The notes under the pieces were generated by a model that was given only the letters and a program-made list of their open reading frames with translations, was not told the origin of the DNA and searched no databases. DNA of 64,000 nt from an uncultured Muribaculaceae bacterium (GTDB lineage: Bacteria; Bacteroidota; Bacteroidia; Bacteroidales; Muribaculaceae), in assembly GCA_944320595.1 (NCBI GenBank), contig CALUIB010000013.1:29480-93479 (forward strand). The letters run 5' to 3'. Shown piece by piece: positions 478 to 30,116 of this stretch (within the stretch, counting starts at the first letter, position 1; every line of letters begins with the position of its first letter). Made by a program: the position numbers and the translations under genes.

Positions 478-2301
478 ATGAGTATTCCGTTAAGAAGTTC
501 AATATCCACCAGTGGCCGCCGCATGGCCGGGGCACGAGCCTTGTGGATGGCCAACGGCATGAAACCTATGCAGATGGGCAAGCCAATCATTGCCATCGTT
601 AACTCGTTCACGCAATTCGTGCCGGGGCACACGCACCTGCACGAGGTGGGGCAGATGGTGAAGCGCGAGATTGAGCAGATGGGCTGTTTCGCAGCCGAAT
701 TCAATACAATCGCCATCGACGACGGCATTGCTATGGGGCACCAAGGTATGCTGTATTCGTTGCCTTCGCGTGACTTGATTGCCGACAGCGTGGAATATAT
801 GGTCAATGCCCATTGCGCCGACGCGATGGTGTGCATAAGCAATTGCGACAAGATAACGCCGGGAATGCTGATGGCGGCGATGAGGCTGAACATACCCACG
901 ATTTTCGTGTCGGGCGGCCCCATGGAGGCTGGCCGGTTAGGCAACCGTGCGCTCGACCTTATCGATGTGATGGTGGATGCAGCCGACACGAGCATCGACG
1001 ACAGCACCATAGCCGAGGTGGAGGCGTGTGCATGCCCCACGTGCGGTTCTTGCTCGGGAATGTTCACCGCCAACTCGATGAATTGCCTTGTCGAGGCTCT
1101 CGGGTTGGGGTTGCCGGGCAATGGCACCATAGTGGCAACTCATGCCAACCGCCTGGGGCTGTTCAAGCAGGCCGCGCGGCTGATAGTGGAGAATTGCCGG
1201 AAGTATTACGAGGAAGGCGACGAGAGCGTGTTGCCGCGCAGCATAGCGAGCCGGCAAGCGATGCTTAACGCCATGACGCTCGACATTGCCATGGGGGGCA
1301 GCACAAATACTGTGCTGCACCTGCTTGCCGTGGCCAATGAGGCCGGTGCCGACTTCACCATGGCCGACATCGATGCCCTTTCGCGACGCACTCCGGTGCT
1401 GTGCAAGGTTGCGCCCAACTCGAAGTATCACATCGAGGACGTGAACCGCGCCGGTGGCATAATGTCGATAATGGGGATACTTGCCGCCGGGGGGCTTATC
1501 GACACGTCGCTGCGGCGTGTTGACGGGCTGACGCTGGGCGAGGCCATCGACCGCTACGCCATCGGCGGTAGCAAGTTCGACACGGCGACGGCGTGGCTGT
1601 GGAAAAGTGCACCCGCGGGCGTGAGGAGCGTGACGCTGGGCGGACAGGAGAATTACTACAAGGAGCTTGACACCGACCGTGCCACGGGTTGCATACGCGA
1701 TTTCGACCACGCTTATGTGAAAGATGGCGGACTTGCCGTGCTGCGCGGCAACATTGCCCTGCACGGGTGCGTAGTGAAGACTGCCGGTGTCGATGAGAGC
1801 ATTTTCCACTTCCGCGGCACGGCGCGTGTGTTCCAGTCGCAGGAGGAGGCCGTCGATGGAATACTTGGCGGCAAGGTGCAGGCTGGCGACGTTGTGGTCA
1901 TCATTTACGAAGGCCCCAAGGGCGGGCCGGGAATGCAGGAGATGCTTTACCCGACGTCCTACATCAAGTCGCGCCACCTTGGCAAGGAGTGCGCGCTCAT
2001 CACCGACGGGCGTTTCTCGGGAGGCACGTCGGGGCTGTCGATAGGGCACATCTCGCCCGAGGCTGCCCGCGGTGGCAACGTGGGCCTGCTGCGCGATGGC
2101 GACGTCATCGACATCAATATCCCCGAGCGCAGCATCAATGTGATGCTTAGCGACGAGGAGCTTGCCGCACGGCGAGCCGAGGAGGAGGCCAAGGGAGCCG
2201 ATGCCTTCAAGCCCACACGGCGCAACCGAGTGGTGTCGAAGGCACTTCAGGCTTACGCCTCGATGGTGACATCGGCCGACCGTGGCGGTGTGCGCGAGTG
2301 A
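478..2301 (+). CDS. ilvD: Dihydroxy-acid dehydratase
   Basis: A 607-residue protein that removes water from 2,3-dihydroxy acids to give the 2-keto acids leading to valine, leucine and isoleucine, in the cytoplasm. It is collinear with the E. coli-type enzyme over its full length. The iron-sulfur cysteines are seen in CISNCDK (C123) and [11 protein letters not shown] (C189, C192), and the C-terminal EGPKGGPGM and [10 protein letters not shown] signatures are intact. It is the first structural gene of the operon and lies just after the attenuator. ATG at 478 gives the standard start, [14 protein letters not shown] following soon after. Confidence 0.97.
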
Positions 2302-2359
2302 GAGCTATTGACGATAAACGATATTGCAAAAATTTAGATATTAGGAAGAAAGATATATT

Positions 2360-4075
2360 ATGGGTGAAATGATTTCAGGAGCCGAGGCGTTGGTGCGTTC
2401 GCTCGTTGCCGAAGGGGTCGATACCATCTTCGGTTACCCGGGTGGGGCCATTATCCCGGTTTTCGACCGCTTATATGACTACAAAGACCGCCTGCGGCAC
2501 ATACTCGTGCGGCACGAGCAGGGGGCTACCCATGCTGCGCAGGGTTATGCGCGTGTGTCGGGGCGCACCGGCGTGGTGGTGGTGACTTCGGGACCGGCGG
2601 CCACCAATGTAATCACCGGCCTTGGCGATGCCATGATGGACAGCACGCCGCTTGTGGTGATTACCGGCCAGGTGGGAAGCGAGCTGCTTGGCTCTGACGC
2701 TTTTCAGGAGACCGACGTGATAGGCATCACGCAGCCGGTGACGAAATGGAGCTACCAAATTCGCAACGTGGAGGACTTGCGCTGGGCTGTACCCAGGGCC
2801 TTCTATATAGCCTCGAATGGCCGCCCCGGCCCGGTGGTGCTTGACTTTGCCAAGAATGCGCAGAACGACATGATGGAGTGGCGGGGATACAAGAAGTGCC
2901 ACTTCGTGCGCACCTACGAGCCTTGTCCTGAAATCTGCGAGGCCGACGTTGACACGGTGGCCGGTATGATTGATGCGGCGCACCGCCCGTTGATAATAGC
3001 CGGGCACGGCGTGGAGATAGCTGGCGGCGAGCAGGAGCTGCTGAGGCTGGCGCGGAAGGCGCAGGTGCCGGTGGCTACTACGTTGCTGGGGTTGTCAACA
3101 ATCGACACCGACGAACCGCTGTTCAAGGGAATGGTGGGAATGCACGGCAATGTGGCTGCAAACGTGGCGATAGGTGAATGCGACTTGCTTGTGGCCGTGG
3201 GAATGAGGTTCGATGACCGCGTGACCGGCGACCCGGCTCACTTCGCCAAGCAGGCAAGGGTGGTGCACATCGACATCGATTCGTCGGAGTTTGGCAAGAT
3301 TATCGCCCCGGCGGCCACAGTGCATGGCGATGCCAAGGCGGTGCTGGCGATGCTTGCCGACAAGGTGGCCGAGGCAAGGCACGACGAGTGGCTTGCCAGT
3401 TTCGACAAGGCTCGCAAGGTGGAATGGGAGAAGGTGGTAAAGCCCGAGCTTGAAGGTGATGGCAGCCGCATCACTATGGGCAGTGTGGCTCGCAAGGTGG
3501 CCGAGGCCGCCGGGCGCGGAGCAGTGCTTGTGACCGACGTGGGGCAGAACCAAATGCTTTCGGCGCGGTATTTCAAGTACACGGCTCCGCGCAGCATCAT
3601 CACTTCTGGCGGACTTGGAACCATGGGGTTCGGCCTGCCGGCATCGATTGGCGCAAAGATAGGTGCGCCCGAGCGCACGGTGTGCTTCTTCACGGGCGAC
3701 GGTGGCCTGCAGATGACTGTCGAGGAACTTGGCGTGATATTGCAATATGGGATTGACGTGAAAATTGTGTTGCTCAACAACAACTTCCTCGGGATGGTGC
3801 GCCAATGGCAGACGCTGTTCTACGACAGGCGTTTCTCCGAAACCGCGCTTGTGAACCCCAATTTCGTGGCGTTGGCCAATGCATACGGCATCCCGGCCGA
3901 AGATGTCGAGACTCCCGGTCAGCTCGACGGAGCCATTGGGCGTATGCTGGCACACAAGGGCGCTTACCTGCTCAATATCAATATCGACCCCGAGGAGCTT
4001 GTCTATCCCATGACCCCGGCCGGTGCCCCATGCACCACCATCTTGCTGAACAAAGATGAGAAATACGAACATTAA
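2360..4075 (+). CDS. ilvB: Acetolactate synthase, large catalytic subunit
   Basis: A 571-residue thiamine-diphosphate enzyme that condenses two pyruvates, or pyruvate and 2-oxobutyrate, in the first common step to branched-chain amino acids. The N-terminal domain has GYPGGAIIP and the catalytic glutamate E53 in RHEQGATHAAQGYAR. The C-terminal domain carries the diphosphate-binding motif GDGGLQMTVEEL, ending LLNNN. Length and domain order are normal. It follows ilvD after 58 bases and precedes the regulatory subunit by 12 bases. Confidence 0.97.
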   Translation: MGEMISGAEALVRSLVAEGVDTIFGYPGGAIIPVFDRLYDYKDRLRHILVRHEQGATHAAQGYARVSGRTGVVVVTSGPAATNVITGLGDAMMDSTPLVVITGQVGSELLGSDAFQETDVIGITQPVTKWSYQIRNVEDLRWAVPRAFYIASNGRPGPVVLDFAKNAQNDMMEWRGYKKCHFVRTYEPCPEICEADVDTVAGMIDAAHRPLIIAGHGVEIAGGEQELLRLARKAQVPVATTLLGLSTIDTDEPLFKGMVGMHGNVAANVAIGECDLLVAVGMRFDDRVTGDPAHFAKQARVVHIDIDSSEFGKIIAPAATVHGDAKAVLAMLADKVAEARHDEWLASFDKARKVEWEKVVKPELEGDGSRITMGSVARKVAEAAGRGAVLVTDVGQNQMLSARYFKYTAPRSIITSGGLGTMGFGLPASIGAKIGAPERTVCFFTGDGGLQMTVEELGVILQYGIDVKIVLLNNNFLGMVRQWQTLFYDRRFSETALVNPNFVALANAYGIPAEDVETPGQLDGAIGRMLAHKGAYLLNINIDPEELVYPMTPAGAPCTTILLNKDEKYEH

Positions 4076-5452: not shown

Positions 5453-6499
5453 ATGGCAATTTTGAATTTTGGCGGTGTTGACGAGAAAGTGGTCACCCGC
5501 GACGAGTTTACACTTGAAAAAGCGAGAGAAGTATTGAAGGACGAGACCATAGCGGTCATCGGATATGGCGTTCAAGGCCCCGGGCAGGCACTCAACCTGC
5601 GCGACAACGGTTTCAAGGTAATCGTGGGTCAGCGCAAGGAGAGCAAGACGTGGGACAAGGCCGTTGCCGACGGCTGGGTTCCCGGCGAGACGCTGTTTGA
5701 GATAGAGGAGGCCGCCAAGCGTGGCACGGTCATCGAATACCTGCTTAGCGATGCAGCCCAGATAGCCCTGTGGCCTACAATCAAGAAACACCTCACGGCA
5801 GGCAAGGCACTATATTTCTCGCACGGTTTTGGCATCACCTACAGCGAGCGCACAGGCATAGTTCCGCCCAAGGATGTTGACGTGATAATGGTTGCTCCCA
5901 AGGGGTCGGGAACGTCGTTGCGCACCATGTTCCTGCAGGGGCGCGGCATCAATTCCAGCTACGCCGTTTATCAGGACGCTACAGGCCATGCGCTTGACCG
6001 CTGCATAGCACTCGGCATAGGCGTGGGTTCGGGCTACCTGTTCGAGACCACATTCAAGCGTGAAGTTTACAGCGACCTCACCGGCGAGCGCGGTTCGCTG
6101 ATGGGTGCAATCCAGGGCTTGCTGCTTGCGCAGTATGAAGTGCTCAGGGAAAACGGCCACACCCCGTCGGAAGCGTTCAATGAGACGGTTGAGGAACTCA
6201 CGCAGTCGCTCATGCCGCTCTTTGCAGCAAAGGGCATGGACTGGATGTATGCCAACTGCTCTACCACCGCCCAACGCGGTGCGCTTGACTGGATGGGGCC
6301 GTTCCACGATGCCATCAAGCCCGTGATGGAGAAACTGTATGAGAGCGTGAAGACCGGCAACGAGGCTCAAATATCAATCGACACCAACAGCCAGCCCGAC
6401 TACCGCGAAAAGCTCAACGCCGAGCTGAAGGCCCTGCGCGAAAGCGAGATGTGGCGCACCGGCGAGACAGTGCGCAAGCTCCGCCCCGAAAACAACTGA
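5453..6499 (+). CDS. ilvC: Ketol-acid reductoisomerase
   Basis: A 348-residue enzyme that isomerises and reduces acetolactate or acetohydroxybutyrate to the dihydroxy acid used by IlvD. A Rossmann nucleotide-binding motif is seen near residues 36-48 (IGYGVQGPGQALNL), followed by the loop GQRKESKTW that decides cofactor preference. The acidic metal-binding region (DLTGERG, then EELTQSLMP) follows in the all-helical domain. It is the last gene of the operon and is followed by a strong terminator. Confidence 0.97.
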   Translation: MAILNFGGVDEKVVTRDEFTLEKAREVLKDETIAVIGYGVQGPGQALNLRDNGFKVIVGQRKESKTWDKAVADGWVPGETLFEIEEAAKRGTVIEYLLSDAAQIALWPTIKKHLTAGKALYFSHGFGITYSERTGIVPPKDVDVIMVAPKGSGTSLRTMFLQGRGINSSYAVYQDATGHALDRCIALGIGVGSGYLFETTFKREVYSDLTGERGSLMGAIQGLLLAQYEVLRENGHTPSEAFNETVEELTQSLMPLFAAKGMDWMYANCSTTAQRGALDWMGPFHDAIKPVMEKLYESVKTGNEAQISIDTNSQPDYREKLNAELKALRESEMWRTGETVRKLRPENN

Positions 6500-6523
6500 T
6501 GCCCCGCTAGGGTCAGTCATCCA

Positions 6524-6583
6524 AACCGAAAAAAAAAGCGGCTCCAGCCACCAAACTATGTGGCTGAAGCCGCTTTTTCGGTT
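6524..6583 (+). terminator. Terminator of the ilv operon
   Basis: A long, nearly perfect stem joins the AACCG/A-rich left arm (6524-6551) to GTGGCTG and GCCGC at 6560-6573, which are followed by TTTTTCGGTT. The A and T runs on the two sides would let it work on both strands. It lies 25 bases after ilvC and isolates the operon from the cassette downstream. Confidence 0.9.
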
Positions 6584-6650
6584 GACATGAATGTCTCCGC
6601 ATTCAACTGTAGTAGAATAGATAAAAGTTGCAAGAAAGTGGAGGAAAAGA

Positions 6651-6682
6651 TTTGGAGGATGCAACAAAACCTTTTATTTTTG
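6651..6682 (+). promoter_or_regulatory. Promoter of the DUF262/ATPase cassette
   Basis: TTTG at 6651-6654, 20 bases, then TATTTTTG at 6675-6682 is an exact match to the Bacteroidetes promoter consensus. Transcription should start near 6690, giving a leader of about 50 bases before the ATG at 6738. It gives the cassette its own transcription unit. Confidence 0.75.
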
Positions 6683-6737
6683 TAAAGGCAAAGTAACAAT
6701 GGTTTCCCATTGCCTAAGAATGTATTAAAATAAGTGT

Positions 6738-8108
6738 ATGTATATCTCGCTTAATCTGAAGAATATCGGTGACACGAAACTGACGCTACTCCCTGCGTCA
6801 GCAGAGGAAAATAACAAAGAGTTTATGTTGGTAAGGAACGAGAAGGACTTGGACAACCCTTTTCTCTCTTTGCGCTTGGAGGAAAATCACTTTGTCGTAA
6901 CCAATCAACATGATATTGAAGTGCCAGAGGAGCAACTTGCTCTGGAACTTGATGAGTTGGCATTGGAGGTAATCGCCGCTATACAACGTGGAGATGACTT
7001 GTCGGACGTGACTTTGGTGGATGTGGATAAGCCATATAATCCCGACAAAATTCGCGTTGAATCAAAAAATTTCTCACTCAGACAAATATACGACATGATA
7101 AACATGGGGGATTTGAACCTGCATCCAGACTTTCAACGTAACCTGGTATGGGATAATTTCCGCAAGTCAAGGCTTATAGAATCTATATTGCTACGCATTC
7201 CGTTACCTATGTTTTACTTCTCACAAGATGATGATGGGGTGTTGTCTGTGGTGGACGGACTGCAACGCCTGTCTGCGATCTATGAGTTCATGGAGAATAA
7301 ATTGGTGCTGAAAGACTTAGAGTATTTGGAAAACTGCAACAACAAGACTTACAGTGGGAAAGGAAACAGGATAGATGACAAATACGTGAGGTGGTTTAAC
7401 ATGACGCAAATAGTGGTAAATGTCATCGACCCGCAATCACCGCCTAAAGTGAAGTTTGACATATTTAGGCGCATCAATACGGGAGGAAGGCCACTTAACG
7501 CACAAGAGTTGCGTAACTGCTTGGCCGGAAATGGACTAAGGGAGACGTTGAAAAAAATGGTTGACCTTAGGAGCTTCAAAGAGGCCACCTCCAAAAGCAT
7601 CAAGGACACACGAATGGACGCACAAGAGTTGGCATTACGTTTTATCTATTTTTATCGACTCATTTACAAAGAAAAGTTGGGTGTCACGGCCTATTCTGGC
7701 AACATGGATGATGAACTGGACAAGTTGGTAGATGAAATCGGTAAGGACGAGGCGAAAGACCTGGAGACCTATGTGGCGGCTTTTGACAAGGCTATGTATA
7801 GCGCAGAATGGCTGTTCGGTAAGCATGCCTTTAGAAAAGTACACAAAGACACGTTGCCAGAAAGCGGTAAATCTGTTATTAACAAAGCGTTATTTGTCAG
7901 TATGTCGGTATTGCTGAGTAGAAAGAAGGCAGAATCCATCCGATGTCTTCCTCGCTATGCCAAAATATCAGTGTTGGGAAAAGAGATGGACGATAATGAT
8001 GAATACCGTTATTATATGTCTTATGGTACAAATGGGAAAAAGAATATTGAATGTGCTTTCAAAGTGGCGGAAAAACTGTTAAAGGATATAGAGAATGACA
8101 AACATTAG
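6738..8108 (+). CDS. DUF262 protein, first gene of a probable defence cassette
   Basis: A 456-residue protein with a DUF262 domain at about residues 115-260. The signature HPDFQRNLVW is followed by VVDGLQRLSAIYEF (D173-R177), the nucleotide-handling motif of this ParB-related fold, and later FRRINTGGRPLNAQELRN. The first 105 residues match nothing I know. There is no DUF1524 HNH nuclease part such as GmrSD type IV restriction proteins carry. It overlaps the next gene by 14 bases. Its DNA is richer in A+T than the ilv genes, which suggests acquisition by transfer. Anti-phage function is inferred from domains and neighbours. Confidence 0.82.
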   Translation: MYISLNLKNIGDTKLTLLPASAEENNKEFMLVRNEKDLDNPFLSLRLEENHFVVTNQHDIEVPEEQLALELDELALEVIAAIQRGDDLSDVTLVDVDKPYNPDKIRVESKNFSLRQIYDMINMGDLNLHPDFQRNLVWDNFRKSRLIESILLRIPLPMFYFSQDDDGVLSVVDGLQRLSAIYEFMENKLVLKDLEYLENCNNKTYSGKGNRIDDKYVRWFNMTQIVVNVIDPQSPPKVKFDIFRRINTGGRPLNAQELRNCLAGNGLRETLKKMVDLRSFKEATSKSIKDTRMDAQELALRFIYFYRLIYKEKLGVTAYSGNMDDELDKLVDEIGKDEAKDLETYVAAFDKAMYSAEWLFGKHAFRKVHKDTLPESGKSVINKALFVSMSVLLSRKKAESIRCLPRYAKISVLGKEMDDNDEYRYYMSYGTNGKKNIECAFKVAEKLLKDIENDKH

Positions 8109-9195
8109 AATTAAAAACTTCAAATGCTTTACTGACGCTGTTATTGAGCTGAACCAACTCTCCTTGTTGGTAGGAGCTAACGGAGTGGGGAAAAGTACGG
8201 TAATACAAGCTATCCTGCTATTAAAAAACACCATTGTAGCTTTTTCAAAAAATGAAAAGAAGGTAGCCCTGAACGATGAGAATATAACGCTTGGCACGGC
8301 AGATGACATATTATGCCAAACGGCAAACGAACAATGCATAACATTGTCTATCGATGACAAACAGTTGGGAAACACAGTAGAGTGCCGCTACAGCGTAGAT
8401 GCGTATGAAAGTCCGTTAGACATACACATTGACGAGGTTTCTCAGCAAGGACATCACTTATTGGCAGGACATCACCTTCATTATCTGAGTGCGGAACGAC
8501 TCGGTCCTCGTATATCACAGCCGCTGCATAGTCTGCCGTATATAGATGTAGGATGCAACGGACAATATACCGCTCAGGTGCTTAGTCATGAGGGAGGTAT
8601 GTTGAAGGTTGAGAAAGATAGGATGTTTGAGGTCACGAAAAACAGGATTTTACAGGCGCAAGTAAATGAATGGTTGTCGAAAATCTTGCCGGGCATACAT
8701 ATATCTGCTAACCAAGACACAAAAAGCCTGCAGGCACAAATAAGAATAGACAATCATAACGGCTTAACGCCTATGTTGGCTCCTAACATAGGGTTTGGCA
8801 TAAGCTATGTGTTGCCAATTATCACGGCTGGACTGACCGTGGAGAAAGAGAGCCTATTTATTGTGGAAAATCCTGAAGCACACCTTCACCCAGCGGCGCA
8901 GTCGGCAATAGGAGAATTCCTGGGAATGGTAGCGCAAAGCGGTGTGAATGTCATCATAGAAACCCATAGTGACCATGTGGTAAACGGAGTGCAACTATAT
9001 GTAGCTGGGCACAAGGAATTTCATGGCAAGGTGAGTGTCTTGAATTTCTCTTCAAGTAAAGAAGACGTGCAGCCCTCCATCGAATCTTTGACTATGAATG
9101 AATATGGAGAACTATCTGACTGGCCGAATGGATTTTTTGACCAAACGCAGATTGACTTCATGAGATTACAGAAACTGCGAAACGCCCATGTTTAA
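8095..9195 (+). CDS. AAA/ABC-type ATPase with DUF3696 C-terminus
   Basis: A 366-residue ATPase of the RecF/OLD-like group. Walker A is GANGVGKST at residues 27-35, the Walker B region is LFIVENPEAHLHP near 255-268, and the switch histidine is in ETHSDH near 289-294. The C-terminal motif GELSDWPNGFFDQ marks DUF3696. Such ATPases often sit in bacterial defence modules beside an effector. It overlaps DUF262 upstream by 14 bases and the next gene downstream by 8, so the three products are probably made together. The product has no signal peptide or membrane segment. Confidence 0.88.
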   Translation: MTNIRIKNFKCFTDAVIELNQLSLLVGANGVGKSTVIQAILLLKNTIVAFSKNEKKVALNDENITLGTADDILCQTANEQCITLSIDDKQLGNTVECRYSVDAYESPLDIHIDEVSQQGHHLLAGHHLHYLSAERLGPRISQPLHSLPYIDVGCNGQYTAQVLSHEGGMLKVEKDRMFEVTKNRILQAQVNEWLSKILPGIHISANQDTKSLQAQIRIDNHNGLTPMLAPNIGFGISYVLPIITAGLTVEKESLFIVENPEAHLHPAAQSAIGEFLGMVAQSGVNVIIETHSDHVVNGVQLYVAGHKEFHGKVSVLNFSSSKEDVQPSIESLTMNEYGELSDWPNGFFDQTQIDFMRLQKLRNAHV

Positions 9196-10000
9196 TTATT
9201 ATCTTTTGGAACAATCCTATCAGCTAATCGGAATAGAGGCATTACAAGGTAACCTCATCCGATTAAACAGCATACTTGTTTTAAATGATGAGCGAGATCT
9301 CTTTTATCGTTCTGAGACACTATGGAACGTGATGATAGACAATAAGTTGGATTTCTCCACTTGTGTGTTTAGCGCATTGTCTAATAAGCAGTTTATGAGA
9401 AATGTGCTCCCAAAAATGTTTATGCAGCAGATCAAGCAATGCGAACCCATTGCAGACAAAGGCGATTTCGACAAGGAATTTCCTAACGACTTGAACGCTT
9501 TTTGGGGAGAAGTGTTTCAGCCTAAAGAGATATTTTGCCTCTCGACAATTGAAGACTATGAAACATTCCGCCATAAGAGCGTATTGGAGAATATCACATA
9601 TCAGAATTTTTGGCAATGGAAAGACTGTTTATTTGAGAAAATAAGATTTTGTGATGGCGTAAAAGGACAAATTGAAAAGATGGGTTCCTCACGTTTCTTC
9701 CAGCAAATGGTGAACAGGCTGATAGACTTGGATAACTATAACAGGAACTGGACGCAAGGGGTATGTACGCCTAACCAAATTAATGAAACTACAAGCTTGA
9801 GAGTCACTAATGAGTCAGACACGATAAGGAATGACAAAACTTTGAAAAGTTACAGGATGTTTCAGCTGCCAAATGGGAAAACAGAATATTTTGAAATGCA
9901 TATAAAAGCAGGAGAACTACGTATTCATTTTTTTCCTTTGGAGGCAGAACACACTATCTACATAGGTTATATAGGCAGCCATTTACCACTGAAAAAGTAA
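9188..10000 (+). CDS. Unknown protein, third gene of the cassette
   Basis: A 270-residue protein that I do not recognise. It is rich in aromatic residues and probably helical over the first 200 residues. The last 60 look like short beta strands (YRMFQLPNGKTEYFEMHI, then LRIHFFPL and IYIGYIGSHLP). That tail faintly resembles small RelE-like folds, but I would not assign it. Its ATG lies inside the end of the ATPase gene (8-base overlap), so it is part of the same unit. It could be the effector or a specificity factor. No nuclease motif is evident. Confidence 0.7.
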   Translation: MFNYYLLEQSYQLIGIEALQGNLIRLNSILVLNDERDLFYRSETLWNVMIDNKLDFSTCVFSALSNKQFMRNVLPKMFMQQIKQCEPIADKGDFDKEFPNDLNAFWGEVFQPKEIFCLSTIEDYETFRHKSVLENITYQNFWQWKDCLFEKIRFCDGVKGQIEKMGSSRFFQQMVNRLIDLDNYNRNWTQGVCTPNQINETTSLRVTNESDTIRNDKTLKSYRMFQLPNGKTEYFEMHIKAGELRIHFFPLEAEHTIYIGYIGSHLPLKK

Positions 10001-10226
10001 TATTAACTGCGTCTCAAATCGTTATAGATATACGATTTTGTATTTGATTATGGTGCAAGCGTCCAAAATGATGATGTTGCCCAAGTAAGTAGCATAAACT
10101 TGACGAAAATTTGTTGTTATTTAAGTGATTGACTGTTTTTCAAATAATCGGCTGTTTAATAGGACTCACGTCATTCAGCTGCGTAGTATGGCGAGCTATG
10201 TGACAAGGCTGATTGGGAATTATCAG

Positions 10227-10383
10227 TGTCCGCTAAAATGTGATACACTGAATGTAGGGACGCACGAGCCGTGCGTCCCTACATTTTTCATAATGGATGA
10301 CGGTAAGCCCTTATTGGATAATATGACCTCAATACATTTGCCAATCAATGCATTAAAGCTGTTCGCTGCATTTTTAGCGGACA
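10227..10383. repeat. 12-bp inverted repeat, possible remnant of a mobile element
   Basis: TGTCCGCTAAAA at 10227-10238 is matched by its exact complement TTTTAGCGGACA at 10372-10383. The 133 bases between them contain the palindrome at 10251-10285. Paired ends of this kind are typical of insertion sequence termini or small non-autonomous elements. No transposase is present and I could not define target duplications. The assignment is tentative. Confidence 0.35.
10251..10285. repeat. Perfect 16-bp stem palindrome (REP/MITE-like)
   Basis: Bases 10251-10266 pair perfectly with 10270-10285 around a three-base loop. The core is TAGGGACGCACG and its complement. T residues follow on the plus strand (10284-10288), so it could also stop transcription of the cassette. 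G+C-rich repeats of this general look occur as multicopy elements in many bacteria, and genome copy number would decide. Confidence 0.65.
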
Positions 10384-10512
10384 TCAATAAATTTCGGCAC
10401 ACCATCTACTATGGGGTAATAGCGCATATTGATAAGCCCCCTACAACGGTAACGGCAGAGGGATAAGTAAACGGTATGCTAATTGCTGTCTGTCATTGTT
10501 GCATGGCCACGG

Positions 10513-12050: not shown

Positions 12051-12211
12051 GCGGTTAATCTGTATTTTTTGCGAATTGGGGTTAAAATATGGCTATTTGT
12101 TACATATATAACAAAAAATGTGGAATCTTCGGAATGCCAAGGCTGCATTTCGTTACCTTATTGTAACATGGCCATTCCTGTTTTTGACGGGCAAAGAACT
12201 TCGCAGTTCCA

Positions 12212-12244
12212 TTGGAAGAAATTCAAAACAGTTTCTTAACTTTG
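12212..12244 (+). promoter_or_regulatory. Promoter of the apbE gene, close to the start codon
   Basis: TAACTTTG at 12237-12244 fits the -7 element. A TTG at 12212-12214 is a possible -33 element, with a spacing of 22, slightly long. Only seven bases separate the -7 element from the ATG at 12252. The mRNA may therefore start at or next to the start codon. Confidence 0.55.
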
Positions 12245-12251
12245 TGCCGTT

Positions 12252-13277
12252 ATGAAGAAAATGCGACGGTATATTGCAGTGTGGGTGGCATTGGCGGCTG
12301 CCATTGCAGCCATCCTGTTTTTGGGGGATGGCGAGAAGGAGAAGGCTTACCGTGTGGCATCGGGAGTGGTGTGGCACACGGTGTATAATGTGACTTACGA
12401 GTCGGGGCGAGACCTTGGCGACTCGATTGTGGCGGTGACGAGTGCCATCGACCGCAGCGCGTCGATGTATAATCGGCAGTCGGTGCTGAGTCGCATCAAT
12501 GTTGGTGCCACAGATCAAGCCGATGCCACTGTGGCACGGTTGCTGCGGCGGTCGCAAGAGATAAGCCGCGAGACCAGCGGTGCTTTCGACCCTACTGTGG
12601 CTCCGCTTATGCGCTTGTGGAAAACGCAGACCGACAGCGCGGCACTTCCCACCAAAGCCGACATCGATAGCGTGATGCAGTTTGTGGGCATAGGCAAGGT
12701 GGGTATCGATGCTGCCGGGCGGGTGACGAAGGCCGACAGTCGCCTGAGCCTTGACTTCAGTGCCATAGCCAAGGGGTTGGGGTGCGACGAGGTGGCGCGG
12801 ATGCTTGAGCGCAACGGTGTGGAGAACTACGTGGTGGAGATAGGCGGCGAGGTGGTGGCTCGCGGCGTGAACAAGCGCGGCGAACCGTGGGCGGTGGCCG
12901 TGGATATGCCGGTAGCCAATGCCGACTCGGTGGTTCACACGTCGGCCATGGTGCTGCACATCGACAGCGGTGCCGTGGCGACTTCGGGCAACTACCGCAA
13001 TTACAAAGTGGTTGATGGGCGCAAGATTGCCCACATCATAGACCCCGCCACGGGCTGCACGGCACAGAGCGACCTGCTCAGTGCCACCGTCGTGGCGGCC
13101 AATTGCATGGATGCCGATGCATACGCCACGGCATTGATGGTGATGGGGCTGCAACGGGCGCGGGAGTTTGCCGAGCGACGCGCAGCCGACCTGGCCGTGG
13201 TGCTTATATATGCCGACGAGGCCGACGGCTCGCTGCAAGTGTGGCGCAGCCCCGGCGTGGCTCGCTACGAGCGGTGA
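12252..13277 (+). CDS. apbE: ApbE-family FAD:protein FMN transferase
   Basis: A 341-residue exported protein that attaches FMN from FAD to threonines of target proteins such as Na+-translocating NADH dehydrogenase (Nqr) and Rnf subunits. An N-terminal membrane anchor or signal segment spans about residues 6-24. The family motifs SAIAKGLGCDEVA and GEVVARG are present, with HIIDPATG near 258-265 and DADAYATALMVMG near 280-292. No target gene lies beside it. It converges with the DUF4143 gene across a hairpin. Confidence 0.92.
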   Translation: MKKMRRYIAVWVALAAAIAAILFLGDGEKEKAYRVASGVVWHTVYNVTYESGRDLGDSIVAVTSAIDRSASMYNRQSVLSRINVGATDQADATVARLLRRSQEISRETSGAFDPTVAPLMRLWKTQTDSAALPTKADIDSVMQFVGIGKVGIDAAGRVTKADSRLSLDFSAIAKGLGCDEVARMLERNGVENYVVEIGGEVVARGVNKRGEPWAVAVDMPVANADSVVHTSAMVLHIDSGAVATSGNYRNYKVVDGRKIAHIIDPATGCTAQSDLLSATVVAANCMDADAYATALMVMGLQRAREFAERRAADLAVVLIYADEADGSLQVWRSPGVARYER

Positions 13278-13299
13278 AGTCCCGCCTGCGCGATGAATT

Positions 13300-13334
13300 G
13301 CAACTGCAATGCCTGAACAGGCCATTGCAGTTGC
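13300..13334. terminator. Hairpin between converging apbE and DUF4143 genes
   Basis: A 12-bp perfect stem (13300-13311 with 13323-13334) continues inward with CCTG/CAGG (13312-13315 with 13318-13321), leaving one extra base. It sits between two converging genes, the usual place of a bidirectional terminator. There is no clear T run. Confidence 0.6.
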
Positions 13335-13360: not shown

Positions 13361-14707
13361 TTATAATAGCATGGTCATATACACTGGGATATATTCAACC
13401 CCATTTTCCCGTTTATAATCCTTTGTGTATATAAGGTACTTGTTCATTATGCGGTCTGAAAATTTTGAGCAGAATTCGTCTAATGATTTATGCGTTCTGT
13501 ACCCCGATGACTTTACTTCAATGGGTGAAATCTTATGCTTGTCGGGAATGACAAAATCTACCTCGTAGTATTTTTTGCCTTCGGCGTATGGGATTGTATG
13601 ATAAAACAGTTTTTTCCCTGTGGCTCTAAGCATTTGGGCTATAACGTTCTCATATACATATCCCAAATTGGTGCTTAATTTGTCGTTTAGCAACTTATTG
13701 TAAATGATATTTTCGGTAATATCGCTATCCTTGAATGCGAGAGTTACGAACAATCCGGTGTCGGACGCATACATTTTAAAATATTCCTCGTTTTTTGTCA
13801 AGGCCAAACCTGCATTCGGGTCGTCGGAATGGTAGGCCACATTAACCGTCATAGAGTCCTCCATGTCTTTCACGATATTCATTATTCTATCGACCTTTTC
13901 ATCTTCGACGGCTTTGCCTACTTGATAGCGCATTGCGTTTTTGCTGAGCTGGGCTGGAATTGCATCGTATAAAGCCTTGGCTTTTCCCGAGCTGTCTATT
14001 TTGCCAAAATCTTCTTCATAAAGTGCTATGATATCGCGTTTCGCCAAATCAACTGCGGTAAAATTGTTTGTTTTGATATATGCTGCAACTGCCTGTGGCA
14101 TCCCTCCGACAAGCATATATAGGCGGAAGTCCCTCATGAGTTTGCGATGGACGGCATCGCCTAAAGACATTTTTTTTTCAAATGCAGCCCGTAGCAGTGG
14201 AATAGTAGCCGTATCGCCAAGAGCCCATCTAAATTCTTCATAATCCATGGGATACATATCCACTTTTGTTTCTTCGCTTGGAATGAGAATATTTTGGCTC
14301 TTAGAGCGTACAGATATTAAAGAACCAGTCTCGATGTAGTCATACCGATGGTCTTTAACCAAATGCTTGATGGCCTGCCTTGCAAGAGGTTGCAACTGGA
14401 CTTCATCGAATATAATCACCGATTCTCGTTCATGCAATTGCACTTGATAGATGAATTGTAGCCTTAGAAATAGATAATTCAAGTCGGATATGTCATTGAA
14501 TAGGTCATGTACCTCTTTTGATACTTTTGAAAAATCTATCAAGATATATGATTTATACTCGTGTCGCGCAAAATCTTCTGCTATGGTGGATTTCCCGATG
14601 CGCCTTGCGCCTTGTATCAGCAATGCGGTATTGCCATCGCGCTCTGATTTCCATTTGAGCATCGTGTCATATATCTTTCGTTTAAAGTATATTGTGTTGT
14701 CTTCCAT
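13361..14707 (-). CDS. ATP-binding protein with DUF4143
   Basis: A 448-residue AAA-type ATPase of a family widely duplicated in Bacteroidetes. Walker A is LLIQGARRIGKSTIAEDFA near residues 28-46, Walker B is ESVIIFDEVQL near 93-103, and the C-terminal DUF4143 domain has the PD-(D/E)XK-like segment YYEVDFVIPDKHKISPIEVKS. The cellular role of this family is not settled. The gene is more A+T-rich than its neighbours and has tandem repeats in its upstream region (14751-14828), both consistent with horizontal spread. Confidence 0.85.
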   Translation of the reverse strand: MEDNTIYFKRKIYDTMLKWKSERDGNTALLIQGARRIGKSTIAEDFARHEYKSYILIDFSKVSKEVHDLFNDISDLNYLFLRLQFIYQVQLHERESVIIFDEVQLQPLARQAIKHLVKDHRYDYIETGSLISVRSKSQNILIPSEETKVDMYPMDYEEFRWALGDTATIPLLRAAFEKKMSLGDAVHRKLMRDFRLYMLVGGMPQAVAAYIKTNNFTAVDLAKRDIIALYEEDFGKIDSSGKAKALYDAIPAQLSKNAMRYQVGKAVEDEKVDRIMNIVKDMEDSMTVNVAYHSDDPNAGLALTKNEEYFKMYASDTGLFVTLAFKDSDITENIIYNKLLNDKLSTNLGYVYENVIAQMLRATGKKLFYHTIPYAEGKKYYEVDFVIPDKHKISPIEVKSSGYRTHKSLDEFCSKFSDRIMNKYLIYTKDYKRENGVEYIPVYMTMLL

Positions 14708-28397: not shown

Positions 28398-30116
28398 CTA
28401 CATTCCGAAGTAGCGGCGCAGCACGTCGGCATTGGTTTGCGCCGGTGTGCGCACTGCCAGCAATGCTTGCCTCTGGCAGGCGTAGAAAGCGGGTAATGCC
28501 TGCCTTAGTGCAGCCTCGTCGCCGGCCTCGAAATATTCAAATTCAAAAGCTGCGGCGATGGCTCGTGTGCGGTCGGGGCGAGCCACCTCGAAGTATCGTT
28601 CAAGTTCGGGTAGACTCGAAGTGCCGTTGAGAAAGCGGAATATGTTGCCGCCGCCGTTGCACATCACTATTATTTTCAGTTTTGCCGAATTGTATTGCGA
28701 CGAAATACCGGCAAGGTCGTAGCCGAAGCTCATGTCGCCGGTCACCAGCAAGGCCGTTTCCCCGGCAGGGGCCACAAGCGCGGTGCCGAGCGCGGTGGAA
28801 GTGCTGCCATCGATGCCCGATGTGCCGCGGTTGCAGTAGCACGGTTGCTTGACGGCGGTGCCGAATAGCTGGGCGTAGCGTATGCATGTGCCGTTTGACA
28901 GGTGCAGCGTGTAATGAGCCGGTATCGACGGTATTATTACGGAAAATGCCTTTAGGTCGCACCAGGGGGCGTCGGCCACATACTGCTCGTGCCACCGGGC
29001 GGCTTCGCCTGCGAGTTGCTGCCACCGTCGTGCATAGCCCGGTGCGAGGCTTTGCTCGGGTGGCAGTGCATCGAGCAGTTGGCCGAAGAATAGCTCGGGC
29101 GGTGTGTCGATGCGGCGTGTGAGGTGCTGCATGGTGTCGATGGTGCAAGGGTCGGTACCCACCCTCCATTCTTGGGCGGCCGGGTAGCGGCGCAGGAATT
29201 TCTTTGCCACCTTCGACACTAATGAGCCGCCCATGGTGATAAGCAATTGCGGTGCATATTGCCGAGCCTTGCCCGATGGCATTGCACCGAGTGTGCGGTC
29301 GATGGCTGAAATGAACTGCTCGTCGTGCAGGTTGGAAATGGTTTCGGTGAGTATGGCCACATTGCCGCATTGTCGGGCGATGCCCGACAATGCGGCATTA
29401 AGCTGGTGCGACGGGTGATGGAAACCGGCCACAATCATCACCCGTTCTGTTCCGGCAAGTTCTGTGGCAAGCTGTTGCATTGTCGCCCTGTCAACAGTTG
29501 GAGCCGTTGCCCCGTGCTTGATTATGCGCACAGGACTGGCCACCGGCACGGTTTCGCACAGTGGGTCGGCGAGCGGTACGTTAATGTGCACAGGCCCCAT
29601 GGGCGCTGTGGTTGCCGTGATGGCGGCATCGTTGATTAGGCGGTTGGCATACCAGCGGTCTTGTTCGCCGATGCACGATGTTGGCAGGTCGTAACTTTGT
29701 TTCACGATTGCGGCAAGAGATTTGTCTTGCCTTATCGTTTGGCTGTCGTTTTGGTCAATCCATTCTCGCGGGCGGTCGGCGGATACTGCAATGATGGGGA
29801 TTTGCCTGTAATAAGCCTCGGCGATGGCGGGTGCATAGTCGAGCAATGCCGACCCCGATGTGCACACAATCATCACCGGTTGCAGCAGCCGCTGTGCTAT
29901 GCCTATGGCAGCGAATGCCGCACTGCGCTCGTCGGTAATCACCCACTTGCTTATACGCGGTTCACGGGCAAGAGCTATAAGCAGCGGCGCATTGCGCGAG
30001 CCGGGCGACACCACGGCGTGCCGCACGCCGGCGGCAATCATTATTTCCACTATTTCACGGCATTGCACGTGTGCCGAGGTTGTGCCTGCAATGGCGGTTT
30101 TGTTGTGTTGTTCCAT
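28398..30116 (-). CDS. menD: MenD, succinyl-enolpyruvyl-cyclohexene-carboxylate synthase
   Basis: A 572-residue thiamine-diphosphate enzyme of menaquinone synthesis that joins isochorismate and 2-oxoglutarate. Evidence is the N-terminal HAVVSPGSRNAPLLIALA, SADRPREWIDQNDSQTIRQ and, in the C-terminal domain, VTGDMSFGYDLAGISSQYN in place of the GDG cofactor motif. No other men gene is in the window. It lies 22 bases after the xanthine phosphoribosyltransferase gene and 66 bases before the PorZ-like gene on the same strand. Confidence 0.94.
   Translation of the reverse strand: MEQHNKTAIAGTTSAHVQCREIVEIMIAAGVRHAVVSPGSRNAPLLIALAREPRISKWVITDERSAAFAAIGIAQRLLQPVMIVCTSGSALLDYAPAIAEAYYRQIPIIAVSADRPREWIDQNDSQTIRQDKSLAAIVKQSYDLPTSCIGEQDRWYANRLINDAAITATTAPMGPVHINVPLADPLCETVPVASPVRIIKHGATAPTVDRATMQQLATELAGTERVMIVAGFHHPSHQLNAALSGIARQCGNVAILTETISNLHDEQFISAIDRTLGAMPSGKARQYAPQLLITMGGSLVSKVAKKFLRRYPAAQEWRVGTDPCTIDTMQHLTRRIDTPPELFFGQLLDALPPEQSLAPGYARRWQQLAGEAARWHEQYVADAPWCDLKAFSVIIPSIPAHYTLHLSNGTCIRYAQLFGTAVKQPCYCNRGTSGIDGSTSTALGTALVAPAGETALLVTGDMSFGYDLAGISSQYNSAKLKIIVMCNGGGNIFRFLNGTSSLPELERYFEVARPDRTRAIAAAFEFEYFEAGDEAALRQALPAFYACQRQALLAVRTPAQTNADVLRRYFGM

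Follow-up and report, generated by a model that had tools for sequence, protein, structure and literature searches.

The window analysed here, a 64,000-nucleotide stretch from an uncultured Muribaculaceae bacterium (positions 29,480 to 93,479, forward strand, of contig CALUIB010000013.1, GenBank assembly GCA_944320595.1), carries downstream of ilvC three consecutive genes that, judged from profile matches to their products, are a genuine Menshen (nsnA-nsnB-nsnC) cassette. The coordinates of the genes, of the domains and motifs of their products and of the flanking elements are collected in Table 1. The three open reading frames (ORFs) overlap at their ends, by 14 bases between nsnA and nsnB and by 8 bases between nsnB and nsnC, as an earlier reading of the bare sequence (hereafter the first-pass annotation) had reported. 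The same annotation had described the trio as A+T-rich relative to its neighbours, and this is confirmed by the G+C content at third codon positions (GC3), which is 0.50, 0.45 and 0.43 for nsnA, nsnB and nsnC, respectively. The window has 31 other non-overlapping ORFs that reach 250 aa, and 30 of these fall in the range 0.605-0.774. This comparison set consists of mechanically called ORFs, at least one of which (12153-13325, antisense to the ORF at 12252-13277) is probably spurious. The exception, with a GC3 of 0.443, is a minus-strand gene for a 448-aa AAA_14/DUF4143 ATPase (13361-14707), perhaps also acquired.

Table 1. Genes, protein regions and flanking elements of the cassette (window coordinates).
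Feature	Position	Strand	Remarks
Terminator-like hairpin between ilvC and the cassette	6533-6578		Arms of 19 nt (95% complementary) around an 8-nt loop; run of T
Bacteroidales-type promoter TTTG-N20-TAttTTTG, probably that of the cassette	6651-6682	+	Exact pattern match
nsnA	6738-8108	+	456 aa; DUF262/GmrSD_N protein without DUF1524/HNH domain
NsnA N-terminal extension, about residues 1-90	6738-7007	+	Mostly outside the NsnA model (match begins at residue 74); accompanies a short NsnC
DGLQR motif in the nucleotide pocket of DUF262, NsnA residues 173-177	7254-7268	+	Role of the motif as given in the consulted part of PMC10952713
nsnB	8095-9195	+	366 aa; AAA_15/AAA_21 ATPase with DUF3696 C-terminus
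Walker A GANGVGKST of NsnB	8173-8199	+	Within the AAA ATPase
nsnC	9188-10000	+	270 aa; predicted two-domain effector
NsnC N-terminal alpha/beta domain, residues 1-135	9188-9592	+	Described as PIN-like in the literature; fold ambiguous in this analysis
NsnC RelE/YoeB/YafQ-fold domain, residues 147-270	9626-9997	+	Predicted model; conserved R223, H238, R245, H247, Y258, Y261, H265
Genomic repeat/palindrome element downstream of nsnC	10218-10391		Inverted repeats; further copies in the same genome

Identity and distribution of the cassette

The first-pass annotation had proposed Menshen as the first known system to compare and a search against PADLOC profiles as the means of doing so. With PADLOC-DB 2.0.0, all three products are named: the first is NsnA (2.5e-108, residues 74-451), the second NsnB (1.3e-102, residues 1-359) and the third NsnC, which is matched by five models at E<=1e-4, the best of them (3.1e-39) covering residues 95-268 only, that is, the C-terminal two thirds. 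In Pfam, NsnA matches PF03235 (GmrSD_N/DUF262; 1.3e-25), with no second match at E<=1, the threshold at which the absence of DUF1524/HNH and TOPRIM domains from the three proteins is also judged, and NsnB matches PF13175, PF13304 and PF12476 (AAA_15, AAA_21 and DUF3696), in agreement with the DUF262 and DUF3696-ATPase genes of the first-pass annotation. NsnC has nothing significant in Pfam and obtains no identification from NCBIfam. The protein families and their A-B-C order are thus those of Menshen as defined in PADLOC-DB 2.0.0. The window differs in the partial coverage of its NsnC by the best models and in the presence of about 75 extra N-terminal residues in its NsnA; near-full-length PADLOC matches are obtained with the long NsnC proteins of L003, L004, L008, L064 and two plasmids.

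Among the 15 loci fetched via NsnC, the trio is complete in 12; since L062 repeats L002, this amounts to 11 of 14 distinct loci. The incomplete ones consist of B and C only (L007), a C fragment (L010), or a truncated B with C (L055). A search of 297 family genomes, taken from a larger group, found NsnC in 3 of them, the source genome included, and in none of the 8 congeners; in the order, at least 4 of 393 genomes hold it, the source genome again included. Three plasmids have an NsnC-like match, and the two examined carry the full trio, confirmed with PADLOC; one of the two is a mobilizable Acinetobacter plasmid, on which about 2 kb, including an IS3 gene, separate the trio from the brxL gene of a BREX system. 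No match was found in 50,697 phage records. The flanking ORFs differ among the four loci whose surroundings were listed (L056, L062, L063 and L064), and the occurrence of the trio as a unit at different sites, which the first-pass annotation had suggested checking, is seen in relatives as well as on plasmids. At L063, from a different genome within the order, a gene for a NERD-domain (nuclease-related) protein (1978-3051) lies upstream of the trio. It is the PADLOC result for all three genes, together with the gene order in relatives and the patchy distribution, that identifies the cassette as Menshen.

In the source genome, the trio and a ferredoxin-type gene sit between ilvC and a DJ-1 gene. 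By comparison, ilvC is directly followed by the DJ-1 gene in the congener G008 and in the more distant G012, and the spacer holds about 900 bases in G029 and an insertion sequence in the congener G001. The transposase gene found there (L047, 1583-2665) indicates that insertions between ilvC and DJ-1 are not confined to a single lineage. More generally, the genes after ilvC vary among congeners; in the other six, the stretch retrieved (just 1-3 kb in G002, G005 and G006) showed no DJ-1 gene. Family-wide conservation at this locus with normal composition, which the first-pass annotation had named as evidence against a defence cassette, is not what is observed, as the trio is not conserved there and its composition is unusual. 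The cassette was probably acquired horizontally.

NsnA and NsnB: a DUF262 protein and an OLD/PtuA-type ATPase

NsnA has in common with GmrSD, BrxU and SspE a DUF262 domain with the DGxQR motif, but differs from them in lacking a DUF1524/HNH domain; it has no PDB sequence match at E<=1. NsnB, whose PDB sequence matches are general OLD/Rad50/PtuA ATPase kin alone, is of the same broad kind as the ATPases of Septu (PtuA), Gabija (GajA), OLD and PARIS (AriA). However, the NsnB model fits it far better (1.3e-102, versus 2.2e-29 for AriA and 6.8e-19 for GajA), and neither of its partners shows an HNH domain.

These affinities are shared with a different kind of system, namely a DNA-restriction machine in which NsnA and NsnB would recognise and cut phage DNA, in the style of type IV restriction or of OLD, Gabija or Septu, and NsnC would be an accessory. 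The consulted part of a review (PMC10952713) indeed predicts an OLD nuclease in Menshen, paired with a DUF262 gene that is needed for defence. Nonetheless, none of the three proteins has a DUF1524/HNH or a TOPRIM domain, so that the DUF1524 HNH nuclease domain expected of GmrSD type IV restriction is absent from the cassette, and NsnC is no casual neighbour, because A and B accompany it in 12 of the 15 loci fetched through it; a DNA-cutting machine is therefore an unlikely explanation. In the same part of the review, the roles of the Menshen components are left open and an OLD/TOPRIM nuclease is suspected. NsnB supplies an ATPase of the OLD type, and no TOPRIM domain is found; the assignment may refer to the NsnB ATPase or to another form of NsnC.

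Of note, the same genome encodes a second DUF262 protein, this one with an HNH domain (G000 contig C26, L061, 997-2106, minus strand). Its gene adjoins those of a BRO-N protein and of an ORF that, by eye only, may be part of a methyltransferase, and this locus is possibly a separate restriction system.

NsnC: a predicted RelE-fold effector

The C-terminal domain of NsnC adopts a RelE/YoeB/YafQ fold in structure prediction, and its histidines, arginine and tyrosines are kept in 17-18 of 18 NsnC proteins. Residues 200-270, to which the first-pass annotation had drawn attention, fall within this predicted domain, which also fits the suggestion made there that the third protein could be the effector; no resemblance to a housekeeping enzyme, the outcome that would have spoken against it, was found. 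Given the predicted fold and the conserved histidines, NsnC is likely an RNase. It shares with the mRNA interferases YafQ, RelE and YoeB its predicted fold and the positions of two catalytic histidines and of one acidic residue, and differs from them by its fusion to an N-terminal domain, by having no Pfam match, and by the absence of an adjoining Pfam-recognised antitoxin.

The sequence match between NsnC and YafQ is weak and, in this weak alignment, three of the six residues of the YafQ catalytic set (H50, D61, H63, D67, H87 and F91) have NsnC counterparts (E236, H238 and H265), while H50, D67 and F91 have none. In addition, the YafQ family PF15738 has no match in the 18 NsnC proteins up to a limit of E 10, nor in the source genome, and hhalign found nothing between the NsnC C-termini and E. 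coli YafQ alone. The best hit of NsnC in a PDB sequence search is an AraC-type regulator, at E 0.11. Repeating the protein search with a broader alignment brought in two more proteins, one of which is a near copy of that of L056.

Alternatively, the C-terminus of NsnC could poison gyrase as ParE does, or be some other RelE-fold binder without catalysis, so that the effector would act on DNA topology and not on RNA. The near-complete retention of the histidines, arginine and tyrosines argues against this, as does an hhalign comparison with 14 ORFs picked from 30 loci with a ParE_toxin hit (their membership in the family being judged by position alone), which yielded 31 columns with a P of 0.25, outside the conserved C-terminal strands. 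A ParE-like role is thus doubtful, and a ribonuclease is the preferred reading.

At L064 (NsnC at 6499-7416), R223, H247, Y258, Y261 and H265 are replaced, nsnA and nsnB being present and open; this locus offers a naturally occurring example of an effector that may be altered or lack catalysis. As for the N-terminal domain of NsnC, fold comparison of this domain alone singled out no candidate: UDP-GlcNAc 2-epimerases, TRM10/SPOUT-type enzymes and PRORP/HARP/PIN nucleases score close together.

A sub-form with long NsnA and short NsnC

The lengths of NsnA and NsnC were compared at the 14 loci where both proteins are complete (the window, 11 fetched loci and two plasmids), with starts taken as the first possible codons. 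Four loci combine a short NsnC (270-287 aa) with a long NsnA (452-483 aa, DGxQR at 173-189), whereas the other ten have a long NsnC (305-340 aa) with a short NsnA (367-396 aa, DGxQR at 98-121). The NsnA extension can be aligned from the N-terminus among the window, L002 and L063, and that of L056 is not detectably similar to them. This split is confounded with ancestry; yet L064, from the same order, is of the long NsnC form.

The PADLOC match of the window NsnC over residues 95-268 only had raised the possibility of a domain swap, with an unrelated N-terminal domain in short NsnC proteins, which was ruled out by profile comparison. When the N-termini of 9 short and 10 long NsnC proteins are compared, they match with a probability of 25.6% and an E of 7e-4 over 76 columns, a score as high as this being reached in 0 of 100 column shuffles; the short N-terminus is therefore a shortened version of the same domain. 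Furthermore, the NsnC of L063 has a nearly full-length match to the PADLOC model PDLC03899 (1.5e-13), so that the N-terminal variety of NsnC is in part already known to the PADLOC library. Domain polymorphism in Menshen is also reportedly, going by its title, the subject of work by Li et al. from 2025. One speculative and rather improbable scenario is that, in Bacteroidales Menshen, NsnC lost about 50 N-terminal residues and NsnA gained a domain of about 75 residues that clamps the RNase directly; the phage sensor would then itself be the antitoxin, and phage binding would free the toxin.

Signals and repeats around the cassette

The strong terminator placed before the trio by the first-pass annotation corresponds to the hairpin that follows ilvC. 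Bacteroidales promoters follow the consensus TTTG-N19-21-TAnnTTTG, and the match upstream of the cassette ends 55 bases 5' of the first ATG of nsnA. This pattern is found 8 times in the window versus 0.43 expected, a number reached in 0 of 100 shuffles. In contrast, a sigma-70 reading is no better than chance, with 11 matches found versus 10.2 expected; the "consensus promoter" of the first-pass annotation is thus retained as a promoter of the Bacteroidales type and not as a sigma-70 one.

The element downstream of nsnC has 12 further matches in its own genome, with 77-100% identity and mostly restricted to the palindrome core (GGGACGCACG-NNN-CGTGCGTCCC); one of the 12 corresponds to the reverse arm of the element itself, and among those outside it the longest spans 142 bases with 85% identity. 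It could be a repetitive extragenic palindrome (REP)-like or a miniature inverted-repeat transposable element (MITE)-like element. What had been described as a palindrome-rich scar does contain palindromes, but is a genomic repeat with further copies rather than a scar.

A possible mechanism

We propose, with moderate confidence, that this Menshen cassette acts through NsnC, whose predicted RelE/YafQ-like ribonuclease domain would make it the likely effector, set free to attack RNA once an infecting phage is sensed by the DUF262 protein and the ATPase. NsnA, with its DGLQR pocket and without an HNH nuclease, would be a nucleoside triphosphate-dependent sensor, perhaps of phage DNA or of its modification, and NsnB, the OLD/PtuA-type ATPase, would provide a scaffold and a gate. 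NsnC would be kept inactive in the complex by its own N-terminal domain and, once released, would cleave mRNA, probably at the ribosome in the manner of YafQ and RelE. As a result, the infected cell would stop translation and the phage would fail to multiply. The mechanism is likely an RNase-based abortive defence.

The predicted RelE fold of NsnC, as well as plasmid carriage and the patchy distribution, would also suit a selfish stabilising element of the toxin-antitoxin kind, where NsnC is the toxin, NsnA and NsnB are the antitoxin, and phage defence is secondary. However, no small antitoxin gene is recognisable: nsnA, nsnB and nsnC overlap one another, and neither of the two small downstream ORFs matches a Pfam family, so that any antitoxin would have to be of an unknown kind. 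NsnA and NsnB, for their part, resemble a sensor and an ATPase. In addition, according to the consulted part of PMC10952713, defence by Menshen depends on the DUF262 gene. Such a stabilising element is thus very unlikely, and RNase-based defence remains the preferred reading.

Menshen and ptuXYZ

A new potential defence operon, ptuXYZ, was recently described (Gerdes, 2025; PMC11980606); in the consulted part of this paper, 17 operons are reported, encoding a DUF262 protein, an ATPase resembling PtuA and a YoeB-related protein of PIN-like/BECR fold. Compared by description, and within the same part of the paper, ptuXYZ and the window trio share their make-up, i.e., a DUF262 protein without DUF1524, a PtuA-like ATPase and a third protein with two domains. 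The BECR/RelE-fold C-terminus of this third protein has its equivalent in the predicted model of the window NsnC, where the RelE fold was recognised independently of PMC11980606. Its N-terminus is read there as PIN-like and catalytically dead, whereas the N-terminal fold of the window NsnC is ambiguous. The name Menshen does not occur in the main text of PMC11980606, and ptuXYZ is named in no other paper of the searched literature. The shared make-up and the PADLOC result obtained here nonetheless make it very likely that ptuXYZ and Menshen are the same system.

What is added here is the union of the Menshen and ptuXYZ names and a Bacteroidales sub-form with a longer NsnA and a shorter NsnC. 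Unless the link has already been made in the Menshen literature, the two literatures should be read together. Besides this union and the coupled length changes of NsnA and NsnC, a useful point is that the predicted RelE-type fold, with its named residues (H238 and H265), makes the putative active site of the likely Menshen effector directly testable.
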